A DNA stretch of 64,000 nucleotides from Salinimicrobium tongyeongense (lineage in GTDB: Bacteria > Bacteroidota > Bacteroidia > Flavobacteriales > Flavobacteriaceae): positions 744,001 to 808,000 of the forward strand of contig NZ_CP069620.1 in assembly GCF_026109735.1 (NCBI RefSeq). Direction: 5' to 3'. Numbering within the stretch: position 1 is the first letter of the stretch; each line of letters opens with the position of its first letter. The position numbers were made by a program, and so were the translations under genes. Of the stretch, positions 9,531-47,812 are shown in pieces. The notes below the pieces were generated by a model that was not told the DNA's origin, made no database searches, and saw only the letters and a list, made by a program, of their open reading frames with translations.

Positions 9531-12500
9531 ATGGGGAACATCTACAATTCTCTAAAAATTTCGGGCCTTTTTTTACTACTGAGCAGTTCGGTACTGGCTT
9601 CCTTTTGGAGTAATTCTGCATCAGGAATTTACATTTTTCCGCAGGTGCGTCAGTCACAGGCAGCAGGCTGGATGGATTCCCCTTTCGGAATATTTTCTGC
9701 TGCTTTTCAGGAATGTAGTCTTACTGCAAGCTTGTCCTCCACAAATGTTACCTGTAAGGCGGCCAAAAATGGCACAATAAGCATATCCAATCCGTCAGGA
9801 GGAAGCGGGAACTACCGCTACAGCATTGACAATGGAAATTCCTGGCAGGATTCCGGCAACTTTAGCGGACTCCTTCCCGGAAGCTATCAGGTAGTCATTG
9901 CCGATAAAGCCGATTCCAGCTGTCAAAAAAGCCTTAATTCAAACCTGGTTATTTCTGAACCCGATTTACTCAGCCTCACAAATTCCACCAGCACGCCGGT
10001 TTCCTGTAACGGGGGCAGTGACGGAACTGTAACCGCAGGCACGGTGACAGGCGGAAATTCAGGGTACACCTACAGCATCAACGGGGGTAATTTTTCAACG
10101 TCGACTACTTTCTCCAACCTTTCCTCAGGAGATTATACCATTACCGTTAGAGACAGTAAGGGCTGTGAAGCTTCGGAAACTATTACTGTTTCCGAGCCGG
10201 ACATACTGACCCTCACAAATTCCACCAGTACACCGGTTTCCTGTAACGGGGGAAGTGATGGAACTGTAAGCGTAGGCACGGTTGCAGGCGGAAATTCAGG
10301 ATACACCTACAGGATCAACGGAAGTAGCTTTTCAACGTCCACAACTTTCTCCAGCCTTTCCGCAGGAGATCATACCATTACCGTTAGAGACAGCAAGGGC
10401 TGTGAAGCTTCGGAAATTCTTACTGTTTCTCAACCAGACGTACTGAGCCTCACAAATTCCACCAGCACGCCGGTTTCCTGTAACGGGGGCAGTGACGGAA
10501 CTGTAAGCGTAGGCACGGTGGCAGGCGGGAATTCAGGGTACACCTATAGCATCAACGGAGGTAGCTTTTCAACCGCCACAACATTTAACAACCTTTCCCC
10601 AGGAGATCATACCATTACCGTTAGAGATAGCAAGGGCTGCGAAGCTTCGGAAACTCTTACTGTTTCTCAGCCGGACGTACTGACCCTGACAAATTCGACC
10701 AGTTCGCCGGTTTCCTGCAACGGGGGCAGTGACGGAAGCCTAAGTGTCGGCACGGTGGCAGGCGGGAATTCAGGGTACACCTACAGCATCAACGGAGGTA
10801 ATTTTTCAACCTCCACAACTTTTAATAATCTTTCCGCAGGAGATCATACCATTACCGTTAGAGACAGCAAGGGCTGTGAAGCTTCGGAAATTCTTACTGT
10901 TTCTCAGCCAGACGTACTGAGCCTCACAAATTCCACCAGTACGCCGGTTTCCTGTAACGGGGGCAGTGACGGAACTGTAAGCGTAGGAACTGTGACAGGC
11001 GGAAATTCAGGGTACACCTACAGCATCAATGGAGGAAGTTTTTCTACAGCCACTACTTTCAATAACCTTTCCGCAGGAGAACACATTATTACCGTTAAAG
11101 ACAGCAAAGGCTGTGAAGCTTCGGAAACTATTACTGTTTCTCAGCCAGACGTACTGAGCCTCACAAATTCCACCAGCACGCCGGTTTCCTGTAACGGGGG
11201 CAGTGACGGAACTGTAAGCGTAGGTACTGTGGCAGGCGGCAATTCAGGGTACACCTATAGCATCAATGGAGGTAGCTTTTCAACCGCCACAACTTTTAAT
11301 AATCTTTCCGCAGGAGATCATGTGATCACTGTAAAAGACAGCAAGGGCTGTGAAGCTTCGGAAACTCTTACTGTTTCTCAGCCAGATGTACTGACCCTCA
11401 CAAATTCGACCAGCACGCCGGTTTCCTGTAACGGGGGCAGTGACGGAACTGTAAGCGTAGGCACTGTTGCAGGCGGGAATTCAGGGTACACCTACAGCAT
11501 CAACGGAGGTAATTCTTCAACGTCGACTCTTTTCTCCAACCTTTCCGCAGGAGATCACATCATTACCGTTAGAGACAGCAAGGGCTGTGAAACTTCGGAA
11601 ACGGTTACAGTTTCTCAGCCGGAAGTGTTGACAATGACCACTGAACCTGCAACTACAGCAGTTACCTGCCATGGAGGAAGTGATGGGACGATCACAGCCG
11701 GTACAGTTACGGGGGGTATTTCTCCCTACCAATTCTCGGTAGATAACGAGAATTTCTATTCCACCCCAGTTTTCGAAAACCTCACTGCCGGAAATCACAC
11801 CATCTTTGTCAAAGATGCCAATGAATGTGCCATTCAGGTACCGGTGACTGTATCCCAGCCTGATCTTTTAACCGCACAGCTGAGTAAAACGGATGTAAGC
11901 TGTACGAATGGGAACAGCGGTGCTATTCAAATTTTGAATGCTTCAGGAGGACATGGCAATTATGAATACAGCATTGACGGCACCAACTGGCAATCATCTT
12001 CCGGCTTTAGCGAACTCATTGCCGGAACCTATTCCGTGGCCATAAGAGATGCAGCATATCCCGACTGTGTAATAGTGCTGAATTCAAATCTGAAGATCGA
12101 CCAGCCCACCCAGCCGCTATCGGTAGCGAAGGTTACTACACAGCGCACCACCACCTATGGAACGGCTACCGGTTCTGCAACCGTTGACTTTACAGGGGGA
12201 ACACCGGGTTATACTTATGAGTGGCGCAAAAAAGGAGAAACCGGAATTCTCCAGACCACAAAAACGGCAAATTACCTGCCTGCAGGAGAATACGAGGTAA
12301 CGGCCACCGATAACAATGGCTGCAGGCTTTCTAAGACCGTCACTATATATGATGCTATTCATGCCCCTATTATTCCCACCTCTGTTTGTGGTAGTGATAC
12401 TGACGTAATTAGGACCTCATACTTTGAAGTAGAAGACCTTTCTGCCAGGGGTGGCGTGGGCCCTTACACCTATTCCTGGAATTTTGGCGCCAACGCCACA

Positions 12501-18468: not shown

Positions 18469-19656
18469 ATGTACCAACTATCCGATCGCATTAACAACAT
18501 GTCTACTTCTCAAACTTTGGCAATGGCTGCCAAAACCAGAGAACTCAAGGCAGAAGGAAAAGACGTTATAGGCCTTAGCCTGGGAGAACCCGATTTTAAT
18601 ACTCCCGATTTTATTAAAGATGCCGCCATTAAGGCCATCAATGAAAATTACAACGCCTACACCCCGGTAGACGGTTACGTGGAGCTTAAAGATGCCATTA
18701 TCAACAAGTTCAAGAGAGACAATGGCCTCACTTATGATCGCTCACAAATTGTTGTTTCAACAGGAGCCAAGCAATCTTTGGCCAATGTGGCTATGGTAAT
18801 GCTCAACCCCGGCGATGAGGTGATCCTGCCCTGCCCTTACTGGGTGAGCTATGCCGAAATTGTCAAACTGGCCGAGGGCGTTCCCGTAGAAGTACCTACC
18901 TCTGTGGAGTCAGATTTTAAGATGACACCTCAGCAACTTGAAGCCGCCATTACGCCAAAGACCAAAATGTTGTGGTACAGCTCCCCTTCCAATCCCAGCG
19001 GGATGGTGTACAGCAAAGAAGAGCTCCGCGCTTTGGCCGATGTGCTGGTAAAACATCCGCAAATCATTGTGGTAAGCGATGAAATCTACGAACATATCAA
19101 CTTTGTTGGAGGCCACGCTTCAATGGCTGAGTTTGAAGATATGTACGAGCGTGTGGTCACCGTGAACGGAGTTTCAAAAGCTTTTGCCATGACCGGGTGG
19201 CGAATTGGGTACATTGGTGCTCCTGCCGAGATCGCAAGAGCCTGCAACAAAATGCAGGGGCAAATAACCAGCGGTGCAAACTGTATCGCGCAGCGCGCCG
19301 TGATCACTGCCCTTGAAGCCCCTGTGAGCAATATACAGTATATGATCGACAGGTTTAAGAGCCGCAGGAAGCTGATCATAGACCTTATGTCTGGCATTGA
19401 AGGTTTTGCCATTACAGAGCCCGAAGGTGCTTTCTATGTTTTCCCCGATGTCTCTTATTTCTTCGGAAAGACCATTAAAGGCCACGAGATAAAGGATGCT
19501 ACAGATTTTTCAATGTTCCTGCTGGAAGAAGCTTTGGTAGCCACAGTAACCGGAGATGCCTTTGGAAGCCCAAACTGCATCAGGTTCTCGTATGCCGCCA
19601 GTGAGGCTGAAATAGAAGAAGCCATGAAGCGCATCAAAAATGCCCTTTCTGAATAA
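18469..19656 (+). CDS. aspC: Pyridoxal-phosphate aspartate aminotransferase (class I)
   Basis: The 395-residue aminotransferase of fold type I, subgroup I-gamma length, interconverts aspartate and 2-oxoglutarate with oxaloacetate and glutamate. Visible signatures are SLGEPDFNTPDFI near residue 37, the NPSG motif (SPSNPSGM, about 173-180), DEIYEH with the PLP-contacting Asp and Tyr (about 203-208), and SKAFAMTGWRIGY with the Schiff-base Lys (about 236). The C-terminal Arg for substrate carboxylate is in NCIRFSYA. It lies 34 bases after the desaturase gene, which may be co-transcribed. A stem-loop follows the stop. Confidence 0.92.
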   Translation: MYQLSDRINNMSTSQTLAMAAKTRELKAEGKDVIGLSLGEPDFNTPDFIKDAAIKAINENYNAYTPVDGYVELKDAIINKFKRDNGLTYDRSQIVVSTGAKQSLANVAMVMLNPGDEVILPCPYWVSYAEIVKLAEGVPVEVPTSVESDFKMTPQQLEAAITPKTKMLWYSSPSNPSGMVYSKEELRALADVLVKHPQIIVVSDEIYEHINFVGGHASMAEFEDMYERVVTVNGVSKAFAMTGWRIGYIGAPAEIARACNKMQGQITSGANCIAQRAVITALEAPVSNIQYMIDRFKSRRKLIIDLMSGIEGFAITEPEGAFYVFPDVSYFFGKTIKGHEIKDATDFSMFLLEEALVATVTGDAFGSPNCIRFSYAASEAEIEEAMKRIKNALSE

Positions 19657-19677
19657 TAATTTTTTCTGAAATTTATA

Positions 19678-19712
19678 AAAGGATCCCTGCTGAAGAAGTG
19701 GGGATTCTTTGT
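19678..19712 (+). terminator. Intrinsic-type stem-loop after aspC
   Basis: AAAGGATCCC (19678-19687) pairs with GGGATTCTTT (19701-19710), with one G-T wobble and a 13-base loop. It follows the aminotransferase stop by 21 bases. The trailing T-run is short. Confidence 0.5.
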
Positions 19713-19741
19713 TTATGCCTGAAGTACATCAGGAAATAACC

Positions 19742-19765
19742 TCTTTAAAATGGCATTTTTAAAGA
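19742..19765. repeat. AAAAATGNCATTTTT-family palindrome
   Basis: TCTTTAAAATG (19742-19752), one G, then CATTTTTAAAGA (19754-19765). The arms are complementary apart from one extra T. Confidence 0.7.
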
Positions 19766-19819
19766 ACATTTTTAACCTGAAATCTGAAAATTTGAGGTTG
19801 AAATGAACCATACGTATCA

Positions 19820-19834
19820 CGGATTGCAAATCCG
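19820..19834. repeat. Small hairpin CGGATT-GCA-AATCCG
   Basis: Six-base perfect stem with a GCA loop. A sister copy at 46824-46838 differs by a paired G-C to A-T change and one loop base, and its flanks are similar (CAC before, GC after). Confidence 0.7.
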
Positions 19835-19847
19835 CGACAACTCCACA

Positions 19848-19882
19848 ATTCAAGATTCAGCATTTAAAATTCAGGATTAATT
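19848..19882. repeat. Heptad block ATTCAAG/ATTCAGC/ATTTAAA/ATTCAGG/ATTAATT
   Basis: Five consecutive 7-base words, all starting ATT. The first 28 bases recur at 20001-20028 with a single difference. Confidence 0.85.
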
Positions 19883-19930
19883 AGCGCGTTGAATAGTCTG
19901 ATTGAATGACAATCGCGAAAAAATACTTTC

Positions 19931-19947
19931 CAAAAGTGCCACTTTTG
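19931..19947. repeat. Variant palindrome CAAAAGTG-C-CACTTTTG
   Basis: Perfect 8-base arms around a single C. It equals the CAAAAATG-N-CATTTTTG core with a compensated A-T to G-C pair change in both arms. Confidence 0.7.
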
Positions 19948-20000
19948 AAGCACATTTTTCTTGCTGAATTGCAGAAAGCGTCTCGTTTAGGACTTGAGGG

Positions 20001-20035
20001 ATTCAAGATTCAGGATTTAAAATTCAGGATTATTC
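20001..20035. repeat. Second ATTCAAG/ATTCAGG heptad block
   Basis: Words ATTCAAG, ATTCAGG, ATTTAAA, ATTCAGG and ATTATTC. This is a near copy of the block at 19848. Confidence 0.85.
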
Positions 20036-20039
20036 CGCT

Positions 20040-20142
20040 ACTCAATACTCTATACTAAGTACTTAATACCAGACACTCATACTGCCTACTGGCACTGAGC
20101 ACTGTGAACTGAGAACTGAGAACTGAGCACTGAAGACTAAAA
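20040..20142. repeat. ACTNNNN heptad run (15 words)
   Basis: Fifteen successive words beginning AC, nearly all ACT: 7-base words apart from two of 6 bases, passing from ACTCAAT/ACTCTAT/ACTAAGT through ACTGCCT to ACTGAGC/ACTGAGA and ending 3 bases before the end of trkH. Confidence 0.85.
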
Positions 20143-20144
20143 TT

Positions 20145-21641
20145 TTATCGGTTTCTCCAGAAGAATGGGGTTAAAAGTATGAGCACGGTAAATAATTCCA
20201 GCCTTCCTATCAGCATAAGAAAAGAACACCACCATTTGCCCTGGGGCGGCAAGGAATCAAAATTGTTCACGGGGCCAAGATCTCCAAAAGCAGGGCCTAT
20301 ATTCCCAAGCGCAGATGCCGCACCTCCAATTGCAGTCTCAAAGTCAAGCCCCATGGAAGCCAGCACCAAAGCTCCAATTATGAAAGACAGCATATAGAGT
20401 ATGAAGAAGCCCAGGATATTGAAAACAATCTTCTTACTAATACTTTTTCCATTGTAGTGTACTGGGAGCACAGCGTTGGGATGCAGGGTCCTTTTAAATT
20501 CAATAAGGCCATTTCTAATCATGATCACGTGCCGCATGACCTTTACCCCACCGGCTGTAGAGCCTGCCGACCCTCCGAGAAAGAACAATCCGAAGAAAAA
20601 GACAGTGAGAAAGGTGGTCCACAAAGTATAATCGGCCGTAACAAAACCTGTGGTAGTTACAATTGCCAGCACCTGGAACAGAGAATGCCTAAAAGCACTT
20701 TCAAATTCTCCCAAAATCATGGGATGGTCTATAGAAGAAATAAAAGGATCAGCTTTAAAAAAAACGATTAAAGCCGCAATGACAGTAAAACCGACAATAA
20801 AGTAGGAATACCATTTAAATTCTTCATCTTTAAAAACTTTCCTGAAATTCCCTTTAAACCCAAAGTAGCTTATCACAAAATTGGTCCCCGCGAGGAACAT
20901 GAACAGAGAAATAATGTACTGCACCAATGGATTGTCATTCCAGTAGGCGACGCTGGCGTTTTTGGTAGAAAATCCGCCGGTAGAAAGGGTGCTTAGCGAG
21001 TGGTTCACGGCATCAAAAAGTCCCATTCCGGCGAGGTATAACAGGATGGTTTCAGCAAAAGTGAGTCCTACGTAAATAAACCAGAGCCTTTTGGCGGTAT
21101 CGGTAATTCTAGGTTTCAGTTTATCGGCGCTGGGCCCGGGGGCTTCAGCAGCAAACAACTGCATCCCTCCAATTCCCAGGAGGGGAAGAATGGCAATTGC
21201 CAGCACGATGATTCCCATCCCGCCAATCCAGTGGGTTAAGCTGCGCCAGAAGAGCAGCCCTTTTGGAACAGATTCAATGTCATTTAAAATGGAGGCTCCT
21301 GTAGTGGTGTAGCCCGACATGGTTTCAAAAAAGGCATTTGTGAAAGACGGTATTCCGCCGGTGAGCACATAAGGCAGGGTCCCGCTCAAAGCCATGAAAA
21401 TCCATCCGAAGGTAACAATAAGGTACCCGTCCTTTTTTTTAACTTCCTTGGTGTGGCCACGGGTAAGAGCCATTGCCAGGCCTCCCACGCCCATAGTGAT
21501 CAAGGCAGCCTGTAAGATCCCGAAGCTCGCGCCATCCTGGTAATAAAAACTAACCCCGGCGGCAGTGAGCATAAACCCTCCATTGCACACCATGAGCACG
21601 CCCATGATATGACTAATTATAGGCTTGTTAAGTCTAGGCAT
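20145..21641 (-). CDS. trkH: Trk-type potassium uptake channel subunit TrkH
   Basis: The 498-residue membrane protein of the TrkH/KtrB family forms the K+ pore of the inner-membrane Trk system. The four pore-loop repeats with their selectivity-filter Gly residues are visible as TTTGASI, STGGFSTK, TTTGFVTADY and the final loop around ALGNIGPAF; the GSAGSTAGGVKV stretch is characteristic. The start chosen is the ATG at 21641, which overlaps the trkA stop as TAATG; a longer reading up to 21689 would lie inside trkA. It is co-transcribed with trkA, its NAD-binding regulatory partner. Confidence 0.92.
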   Translation of the reverse strand: MPRLNKPIISHIMGVLMVCNGGFMLTAAGVSFYYQDGASFGILQAALITMGVGGLAMALTRGHTKEVKKKDGYLIVTFGWIFMALSGTLPYVLTGGIPSFTNAFFETMSGYTTTGASILNDIESVPKGLLFWRSLTHWIGGMGIIVLAIAILPLLGIGGMQLFAAEAPGPSADKLKPRITDTAKRLWFIYVGLTFAETILLYLAGMGLFDAVNHSLSTLSTGGFSTKNASVAYWNDNPLVQYIISLFMFLAGTNFVISYFGFKGNFRKVFKDEEFKWYSYFIVGFTVIAALIVFFKADPFISSIDHPMILGEFESAFRHSLFQVLAIVTTTGFVTADYTLWTTFLTVFFFGLFFLGGSAGSTAGGVKVMRHVIMIRNGLIEFKRTLHPNAVLPVHYNGKSISKKIVFNILGFFILYMLSFIIGALVLASMGLDFETAIGGAASALGNIGPAFGDLGPVNNFDSLPPQGKWWCSFLMLIGRLELFTVLILLTPFFWRNR

Positions 21642-46809: not shown

Positions 46810-46823
46810 TTTTAATCCCGGCA

Positions 46824-46838
46824 CAGATTGTAAATCTG
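46824..46838. repeat. Small hairpin CAGATT-GTA-AATCTG
   Basis: Six-base perfect stem, sister to the hairpin at 19820-19834; the second stem pair is A-T here and G-C there. It starts 15 bases after the stop of the membrane protein gene. Confidence 0.7.
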
Positions 46839-46880
46839 CAGCATTTGAAGGGATGGAAAAACTGAGCAATCAATATTTTT

Positions 46881-46915
46881 ATTGAATATTGAATATTGAA
46901 TATTGAATATTGAAT
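46881..46915. repeat. Five perfect ATTGAAT heptads
   Basis: ATTGAAT is repeated five times without interruption. Confidence 0.95.
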
Positions 46916-46974
46916 GTTTAAAAAATTAGGCACAGTGGAAAGTCGCCGCCATCTGAAAAATGATAAAACTGCTC

Positions 46975-47002
46975 ACTGAGCACTGAGCACTGAGCACTGA
47001 AT
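46975..47002. repeat. ACTGAGC heptads
   Basis: ACTGAGC three times, then ACTGAAT, ending 6 bases before the stop of the acyltransferase gene. The same word ends the heptad run at 20094-20135. Confidence 0.95.
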
Positions 47003-47008
47003 ACTTTT

Positions 47009-47812
47009 TTAATATTCCCACTGCCGGGTTTTGTTGAGGGCTTCGATAGCTTCCAGCTCTTCCTGGGGTATTACTTTTAAGAAAGAAGGGTGCTGTTCTA
47101 TAGCAAATTCAAGTTTTTCAACGATCTCCTCAATAGTTTCATTATCATAGTCAATAGCCAGTGGCTCTTTGATCTGAAAGGTCTGTAAAATGCCTTTTTT
47201 GCGTATCCGCAATCCTTTTTTGTCAAAAGAACGCCTAAAGCCATCAATAACAATTGGGATCACTATAGGTTTATACTGCTTGATGATGTGTGCGGTGCCT
47301 TTCCTGATGGGCTTAAAAGGTTTCGTTGTACCCTGCGGAAAAGTGATCACCCATCCATCTTCTAAAGCTGTCCCGATATTTTTATGATCGTTTGGGTTTA
47401 CTTCGCGCTGCACTTCTTTTCCTTTTTCGCGCCAGGTTCTCTCTACCGAAACTGCCCCGGCGTAAGCCATAATTCGGGTGAGCAGGCCTGCATTCATGGT
47501 TTCCTTGGCCGCCACGTAATAAATATTGAGCTTAGGCTGCCATATATAGCCCACGTTTTTGATAGAATCTACCCTTCCGCTTAAAGCAGCGTTAAAAACG
47601 TGGAACATGGCCGTAACATCGGCAAAGTAAGTCTGGTGGTTTGAAACAAAGAGCACATTGTTATCGGGCAGATTTTTAATGATCTCAGATCCTTCGATCT
47701 TCAGTTCATTAAATCCCCTGTATCGCCTGTGTGAAAGCACTCCGAAGATCCGGATGAGCCATTTTTTTATGTAAAGATAGTGCCCAAAAGGATTTTTTTT
47801 CAATATCCCCAT
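47009..47812 (-). CDS. PlsC-like 1-acylglycerol-3-phosphate acyltransferase
   Basis: The 267-residue membrane-associated acyltransferase probably acylates lysophosphatidate or a similar lysolipid in phospholipid synthesis. Motif I reads NHQTYFADVTAM (about residue 57), where the catalytic His and Asp are separated by five residues rather than the usual four; the later motif is FPQGTTKPFKP (about 163) and the phosphate-site stretch PIVIPIVIDGF follows. It lies 47 bases after the Nudix gene in the same direction and may be co-transcribed. The exact acyl acceptor is not known. Confidence 0.82.
   Translation of the reverse strand: MGILKKNPFGHYLYIKKWLIRIFGVLSHRRYRGFNELKIEGSEIIKNLPDNNVLFVSNHQTYFADVTAMFHVFNAALSGRVDSIKNVGYIWQPKLNIYYVAAKETMNAGLLTRIMAYAGAVSVERTWREKGKEVQREVNPNDHKNIGTALEDGWVITFPQGTTKPFKPIRKGTAHIIKQYKPIVIPIVIDGFRRSFDKKGLRIRKKGILQTFQIKEPLAIDYDNETIEEIVEKLEFAIEQHPSFLKVIPQEELEAIEALNKTRQWEY

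Follow-up and report, generated by a model that had tools for sequence, protein, structure and literature searches.

Arrays of 7-base words in the intergenic DNA of a Salinimicrobium genome are oriented with respect to genes. When such a heptad array comes within 12 bp of a gene edge, the strand that carries more C than G points into the gene in 42 of 46 cases (p = 5e-9). Many different words are in use, and they differ widely between genes of the one genome; whatever makes or keeps them is tied to gene edge and strand rather than to a single motif. The reading that we tentatively prefer, to which we give a little less than an even chance, is that these are heptanucleotide arrays of the STRR/LSSR class in a degenerate, many-word form, which would grow in 7-base steps with a strand polarity and be stopped at gene edges by selection, a mechanism that we infer from their layout.

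The window, the whole stretch of 64,000 bases under analysis, comprises bases 744001 to 808000 of a single-contig genome of 3.51 Mb. By its trkH gene, the closest named relatives are Salinimicrobium, with the best match at 95% identity in S. profundisediminis. All densities rest on the window and 58 evenly spaced 20-kb stretches, which together cover 1.224 Mb of the chromosome. Two further sets of 16 and 40 stretches had been picked for containing heptad words and were used for orientation and distance only. Genes were called with a simple hexamer-trained caller, and tracts were scored at each lag; called start positions may fall just after non-coding arrays, and stop edges are exact.

The convergent gap between an aminotransferase gene and trkH contains the periodic signal noted at first inspection. 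From 19848 to 20142, the sequence matches itself at 43.8% of positions at lag 7 and 43.1% at lag 14, compared with 20 to 32% at the other lags from 1 to 20, which bears out the strong, exact 7-base period that the first-pass annotation had described despite changing words (Table 1). Its two similar 28-base stretches, starting at 19848 or 19849 and at 20001 or 20002, are indeed the same in 27 of 28 bases and 153 bases apart. The claimed run of fifteen ACTNNNN words from 20040 holds in number but not in detail, as 14 words start with ACT and one, at 20068, with ACC, and two of the words are only 6 bases long. The arrays sit between the trkH stop and a hairpin beside the aminotransferase stop that is probably a two-way terminator, and similar hairpins are readable in the orthologous gaps. 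An Rfam search of window positions 19000 to 21000 returned nothing above a gathering score; the sole match up to an E value of 1 had E 0.24 and 15.3 bits against a cut-off of 50.

Table 1. Features of the two arrayed gaps and their flanking genes (window coordinates)
Feature	Coordinates	Strand	Remarks
Aminotransferase class I/II gene, left flank (aspC in the first-pass annotation)	18469..19656	+	Pfam Aminotran_1_2, E 1.1e-76
Hairpin flanked on either side by A/T-runs, next to the aminotransferase stop	19677..19711		Read by eye, with no terminator-tool score
Second copy of the 28-base heptad stretch	19848..19876	-	27/28 identical, 153 bases upstream
Heptad array ATTCAAG/ATTCAGG	20001..20031	-	C-over-G strand (-) points to the left aminotransferase gene
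Main heptad array, ACTNNNN drifting to ACTGANN	20040..20141	+	+ is the C-over-G strand and points into the trkH stop
trkH, right flank	20145..21641	-	3' end at 20145; Pfam TrkH, E 4.6e-72
Heptad array TATTGAA x5	46880..46921	-	C-over-G strand (TTCAATA) points to the left gene
Heptad array CACTGAG x4	46968..47005	+	3 bp short of the stop of 47009-47812(-), an acyltransferase-like gene, into which the C-over-G strand points

The same gap also holds repeats of other kinds. A REP-like palindrome, CACGGATTGCAAATCCGCG, lies at 19818-19836, and such palindromes are readable in the orthologous gaps of L031 (three), L032, L035, and L036 and not in those of L034 and L037; across the 1.224-Mb sample of this genome, it has only one strict match. 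A second, imperfect repeat pair at 19747-19774 and 19931-19959 (AAAATGGCATTTTT...AACATTTTT and a variant) resembles sequence beside the REP-like units of L031 and is possibly part of a composite repeat.

Elsewhere in the window, the convergent gap 46810-47008 holds two further heptad arrays. Also, large tandem repeats of 273 and 237 bp, at 4-1117 and 9967-11620, lie inside two very long open reading frames that are adhesin-like by size alone.

Across the sample, tracts of period 7 are frequent and depend on gap class. Among gaps of at least 40 bp, 14 of 111 convergent and 25 of 387 tandem gaps carry a tract at lag 7 or lag 14, compared with none of 139 divergent gaps (35 kb); the contrasts with divergent gaps have p values of 7e-6 for convergent and 7e-4 for tandem gaps. 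By lag, the convergent, tandem, and divergent gaps hold 18, 17, and 0 tracts at lag 7; 13, 20, and 0 at lag 14; and 5, 8, and 0 at lag 21, and lags that are not multiples of 7 yield 0 to 2 gap tracts per class. The first-pass annotation had proposed to discard its observation if the signal at lag 7 proved no stronger than in shuffled DNA or if it was as abundant in divergent gaps and coding DNA. Neither turned out to be so in this sample. Markov-2 shuffles of the 111 convergent gaps gave a mean of 0.0 lag-7 tracts where 18 were observed (0.0 to 0.1 across lags 7 and 14), and besides the empty divergent gaps, 1.08 Mb of coding DNA contained just six lag-7 tracts, five of them inside one called open reading frame. 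STRRs are a known class of repeats with heptanucleotide units. Two properties of heptanucleotide STRRs and LSSRs are found here: tandem 7-base units in several copies and above chance, and a mainly intergenic location at many sites.

The emphasis that had been placed on convergent gaps needs qualification. They are the densest class, and at threshold, no divergent gap of the Salinimicrobium samples has a tract, as evidenced also by a further 66 divergent gaps in two more genomes and seven trkH loci; tandem gaps are populated as well, though, and the governing feature is the gene edge with the strand that points into the gene, not convergence. With the same 40-bp minimum for gaps, the two additional Salinimicrobium genomes have tracts in 0/10 and 3/15 convergent, 4/60 and 2/86 tandem, and 0/22 and 0/25 divergent gaps, and the seven trkH loci have them in 4/12 convergent, 0/31 tandem, and 0/19 divergent gaps. 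Avoidance of divergent gaps is not absolute. Under looser word searches, such gaps of this genome hold 2 of 37 TCAGTNN and 2 of 20 TTCAANN arrays; moreover, 5 of 48 ACTGANN arrays from other genera lie in divergent gaps, and genome G381 has tracts in 2 of 13 that are at least 40 bp long.

Within gaps of 40 to 1000 bp, tracts crowd against gene edges. Of the 18 convergent tracts, 11 are no more than 8 bp from the nearer stop, where random placement would put 3.7. Among 32 tandem tracts, 13 come to within 8 bp of the stop upstream, and 10, a figure that depends on the simple gene caller, to within 8 bp of the start downstream, with 4.4 expected for each. Altogether, 46 of 80 arrays of this genome are within 12 bp of a gene edge, and 34 are farther off.

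It is at these edges that strand polarity appears. Counting arrays in gaps of 25 to 1500 bp with unequal C and G (4 of 84 arrays in this genome and 5 of 84 in other genera had equal numbers), the C-over-G strand points into the gene at 12 of 12 starts and 30 of 34 stops of this genome, so that G outnumbers C on the strand that leads out of the gene. When all sets are pooled, keeping loci L183 and L190 from other genera, which overlap L269 and L285, the polarity is seen in 95 of 110 arrays near an edge and in 34 of 69 arrays that are at least 13 bp from any edge. The effect is not peculiar to one word: for words other than ACTGA, C exceeds G on the pointing strand in 23 of 26 arrays at stops and 14 of 17 at starts (the other three are ties). 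Edges that lack arrays show no such skew at stops (245 C-rich versus 246 G-rich) and a weaker bias in the same direction at starts (364 versus 220). Because array-free starts share the bias and array-free stops are even, the stop edges provide the stronger evidence. The replication strand makes no difference. Edge polarity is the same for genes on the leading (25/28) and the lagging (17/18) strand, and the C-rich strand itself shows no replication-strand bias over the 80 arrays (42 leading versus 38 lagging).

Plain replication slippage in neutral spacer, without polarity and with the pattern reflecting mere avoidance of promoters and genes, would account for the scarcity or absence of arrays in divergent gaps and coding DNA, for the drift of words, and for the even orientation away from edges. 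We judge it unlikely, since it predicts neither the polarity of 42 in 46 edge arrays nor the excess within 8 bp of stops, nor does it predict that gaps should be nearly free of periods other than multiples of 7. It had been argued that simple slippage of one unit leaves a changing word of constant length unexplained. Word drift taken alone fits slippage combined with point mutation; it is the polarity and the abutment on edges that lie beyond plain slippage.

The geometry was also counted for arrays of one common word, ACTGANN, where an edge lies less than 2000 bp away, a limit that removes the rRNA operons. In 25 of 28 such arrays of this genome, the ACTGANN strand has its 3' end closer to a gene edge than its 5' end, and 19 arrays have the 3' end within 12 bp of it, versus 0 with the 5' end. 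The edge is either a stop, with the word antisense, or a start, with the word sense. In other genera of the family, after removal of the overlapping loci L183 and L190, the tendency is weaker (31 of 47; 23 versus 5 within 12 bp). Also, where two arrays follow one another in one gap, they are directed outward in 20 cases and inward in 4 (p = 0.0015), a count in which two locus pairs from other genera overlap and a few arrays may be counted twice. Within the rRNA operons, there are ACTGANN arrays that stop 7 bp short of a tRNA gene and 13 bp short of a 5S rRNA gene and point into both. As the arrays abut tRNA and 5S genes, translation signals cannot be the cause at those sites. Array phase is locked only weakly to the stop codon, with 13 of 27 arrays in two of the seven phases.

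An alternative is that the arrays act in RNA, either as heptad-spaced sites in 5' and 3' untranslated regions to which an RNA-binding protein (RRM, S1, Csp, or another) would bind or as spacers that separate stop codon and terminator. A role of this kind, translational regulation, has been proposed for TAACTGA repeats (MacGregor 2015, PMC4679880). The arrays start at or a few bases from stop and start codons, and the conserved positions within words tend to be contiguous (circular autocorrelation of -0.013 versus -0.16 when permuted, with a standard error of 0.032 over 91 arrays). Moreover, several Salinimicrobium species share a TCAGT core at one and the same stop in gaps that otherwise diverge, and a role in RNA would explain such kept sites. 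However, the same words stand in sense orientation before starts and in antisense orientation after stops, which one RNA-binding motif hardly fits; arrays adjoin tRNA and 5S rRNA genes too; and the words vary widely between genes of one genome. We regard an RNA function as improbable, to much the same degree as plain slippage. Rho utilization (rut) sites after stops were considered separately and rejected: they would require C over G in the RNA, and 28 of the 34 arrays near stops (gaps of up to 1000 bp) have G over C.

Orthologous sites were compared at several stops. Nine loci named Salinimicrobium besides this genome (L031 to L037, L056, and L059) include the trkH stop. Arrays that score follow the stop directly in L031, L035, L036, and L037; in L032, a long array of AGCACCA lies 34 bp past it; no array scores in the gaps of L034, L056, and L059; and in L033, a small called open reading frame hides the gap. 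Among 71 other trkH loci, only L086, from Aequorivita, has a tract in the called gap. Recognizable arrays are also found in relatives at the stop of the acyltransferase-like gene. In 11 genomes, TCAGT-like arrays score there in L169 (this genome), L170, L172, L174, and L176, a different array is present in L179, and five genomes have none.

At two further stops that are overlapped by an array in this genome, the protein ends are conserved in relatives. The first has an array by score in 5 of 11 loci (this genome, L288, L290, L291, and L293), and one locus ends at a contig end. The second has one at the stop in 2 of 11 loci (L304 and L305) and further on in L306; this genome's own degenerate array is below the scoring threshold, and further loci contain degenerate in-phase TCAGT words that can be recognized by eye. 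Erosion of coding ends by the arrays was not seen at these stops. In 20 of 22 loci, counting the two of this genome, the alignment of the two proteins runs through the final residue; of the remaining two, one aligns to within one residue, and one is cut by a contig end. Across all these stops, sites are thus often kept as words and unit numbers change, and sites are also lost. The presence of TCAGT-core arrays at orthologous stops of several species could equally mean selection for function.

We favor growth at the level of DNA because it accounts for the 7-base period, for the placement at gene edges and RNA genes, and for the lack of dependence on transcription or replication. Under this preferred reading, a polymerase that slips or is dislocated on the DNA would create new units 7 bases at a time, and the asymmetry of the strands in G and C would set the direction in which growth is preferred. 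An array would spread over unconstrained spacer until it meets a gene, an RNA gene, or a promoter, where change is selected against. The resulting arrays, probably transcribed together with the gene next to them, would be spacer that is tolerated at its edge. Counting against this reading, no end gradient was found, divergent gaps are not wholly avoided, and the polarity of ACTGANN arrays is weaker in other genera. The first of these comes from a search for an age gradient along arrays, such as one-ended growth might leave, in which in-phase matches past the 5' and 3' ends were equal.

A bolder explanation for the same polarity, and one that we consider quite unlikely, is the healing of broken ends, in which the outward strand would gain units at its 3' end wherever the spacer breaks, after which end joining or some other process would reunite the ends. 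As at telomeres, it is the G-over-C strand that leads outward, and the 20-to-4 preponderance of outward pairs fits such an origin. Within Flavobacteriaceae, ACTGANN arrays occur in 13 of 24 genomes with Ku versus 50 of 275 others (p = 2e-4), and across the phylum, TTCAANN arrays occur in 10 of 40 with Ku versus 20 of 256 (p = 0.003, uncorrected for genome size). Nevertheless, Ku is not required, as 50 of the 63 ACTGANN-positive genomes have none. The association within the family also weakens, to p = 0.005 when matched for genome size and to p = 0.12 when one Ku genome per genus (8 of 19) is combined with size matching, and for that reason, break healing is kept as a bold reading only. Moreover, word sharing between the two outward arms of a gap is not significantly higher than between arrays of different gaps (mean of 0.512 versus 0.481; p = 0.12), although shared words are plain in two gaps of L220 and one of L228.

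In its most specific form, which we hold to be slightly less probable still, heptad arrays of bacteria would be scars of a telomere-like repair, in which a polymerase extends the outward G-over-C 3' end at a broken or gapped spacer in 7-base steps with the last unit as template before joining. If that were true, gene edges would mark the limit of end erosion before selection acts, which would account for the polarity, for the outward pairs, for arrays having no fixed word, and for the geometry shared by Xanthomonas, Nostoc, and Bacteroidota.

Beyond the genus, the heptad-array feature is patchy across relatives. No lag-7 tract reached a score of 14 in 58 trkH loci (1.18 Mb) from Zunongwangia, Christiangramia/Gramella, Gillisia, Salegentibacter, and Aquimarina; at the same score, there were four in 10 Aequorivita loci and three in four other loci. 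Neither 12 single stretches from other Bacteroidota genomes nor a 50-kb control from E. coli contained a lag-7 tract. Of 299 Flavobacteriaceae genomes, 63 (in 54 of the 236 genera) carry four-unit ACTGANN arrays, and the backward control of this search also matches 34 of the 299. Four-unit TTCAANN arrays occur in 30 of 296 Bacteroidota. Because backward controls match too in some genomes, such counts tell which words are used and do not capture the phenomenon as a whole. In two genera (L254 in G166 and L284 in G219), an ACTGANN array ends 5 to 6 bp before the start of what is seemingly the same gene, whose product (MYLEIV.PEA) resembles, by eye, the epsilon subunit of ATP synthase. A locus from another Flavobacteriaceae genome (L202 in G042) has many tracts of period 9, with 22 at lag 9 and 14 at lag 18.

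A mobile element was encountered at some arrays. It is 1.31 kb long, contains an HTH_Tnp_1 and an rve open reading frame, by which layout we take it to be IS3-like, and has a 25-base end found in five exact copies in the genome (at 1077417 [L237], 1126479 [L238], 2903897 [L243], 3010206 [L160], and 3028484 [L244] in G000). The element copies are 99.5 to 99.7% like that in L160. Each of the five sits where a heptad array has its outer end; in four cases, the array directly adjoins the 5' end of the element, and in one, it comes within about 10 bp of the 3' end. The element may target array ends.

Several known systems resemble these arrays in part. Like REP and BIME sequences, they are repeated extragenic DNA between genes, and a REP-like palindrome shares the trkH gap with them; unlike REPs, which are palindromes of one sequence family, the heptad arrays are direct repeats of many words with no fixed sequence. 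As cited in two later papers, Mrazek (2007) described LSSRs with a heptanucleotide preference, intergenic and genome-wide, and proposed a polymerase-contact length of 7 as the cause (PMC4679880, PMC4692102). The arrays share with STRRs and LSSRs this preference and this distribution. They differ in that LSSRs, for which the passages cited do not mention edge polarity, are by definition long, and most arrays here are short and degenerate.

The first-pass annotation knew of no description of such repeats in Bacteroidota. One exists: direct repeats of TAACTGA were reported from Beggiatoaceae, Cyanobacteria, and five Bacteroidetes, including Gramella forsetii and Aequorivita sublithincola, in gaps that also contain other heptamer repeats, with gene rearrangement suggested as the alternative to translational regulation (MacGregor 2015, PMC4679880). 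In Flexibacter litoralis, 12 of 14 sets stand forward before start codons and one is reversed just after a stop (PMC4679880), a layout that fits the same polarity, and TAACTGA is itself a rotation of ACTGATA, an ACTGANN word. The lag-7 tracts listed for our own sample include no exact TAACTGA run, the ACTGA core being common to both; exact runs are present in other genera (G275 and G239). Unlike the present analysis, the passages of that study on these repeats treat one exact word and state neither an edge rule nor a many-word form (PMC4679880).

The closest parallel is found in the GGGNATC and GGGGA(C/T)T heptads of Xanthomonas and Nostoc, which form quadruplexes (Rehm et al. 2015, PMC4692102). 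Those are under-represented between divergent genes, and some overlap a stop codon; their G strand lies up to 50 bp after a stop on the sense strand or upstream of a gene on the antisense strand. No leading or lagging preference was reported for the xanthomonads, and inverted pairs occur in Xanthomonas, with few in Nostoc (PMC4692102). The arrays described here have the same unit of 7, intergenic location, scarcity in divergent gaps, and strand rule at starts and stops, and their G strand likewise leads away from the nearest gene edge (42/46; pooled, 95/110), though not beyond 12 bp. With the period, the polarity, the inverted pairs of Xanthomonas, and similar placement classes in common (PMC4692102), G-quadruplex or i-motif elements, as proposed for those heptads, might be suspected here too. 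We find this highly improbable: the families of Rehm et al. are G-rich, whereas the words here are many, and four runs of three G on one strand occur in just 1 of 106 Salinimicrobium arrays, which nonetheless have the same geometry. Quadruplexes are therefore not its general cause here.

Earlier work reported edge polarity for words that form quadruplexes and discussed it in those terms; its presence in another phylum, with words that nearly all lack the G-runs, separates the geometry from the sequence. The old oddity of why such repeats favor 7 and why they are intergenic becomes a testable question about polymerase slippage, break repair, or selection at edges, for which many natural arrays and orthologous sites are available. 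In searches of open-access literature, we recognized no statement of an edge rule for heptads that do not form quadruplexes. Two points go beyond these known systems: many words without quadruplex G-runs obey the rule, and it is confined to arrays within about 12 bp of the gene edge.
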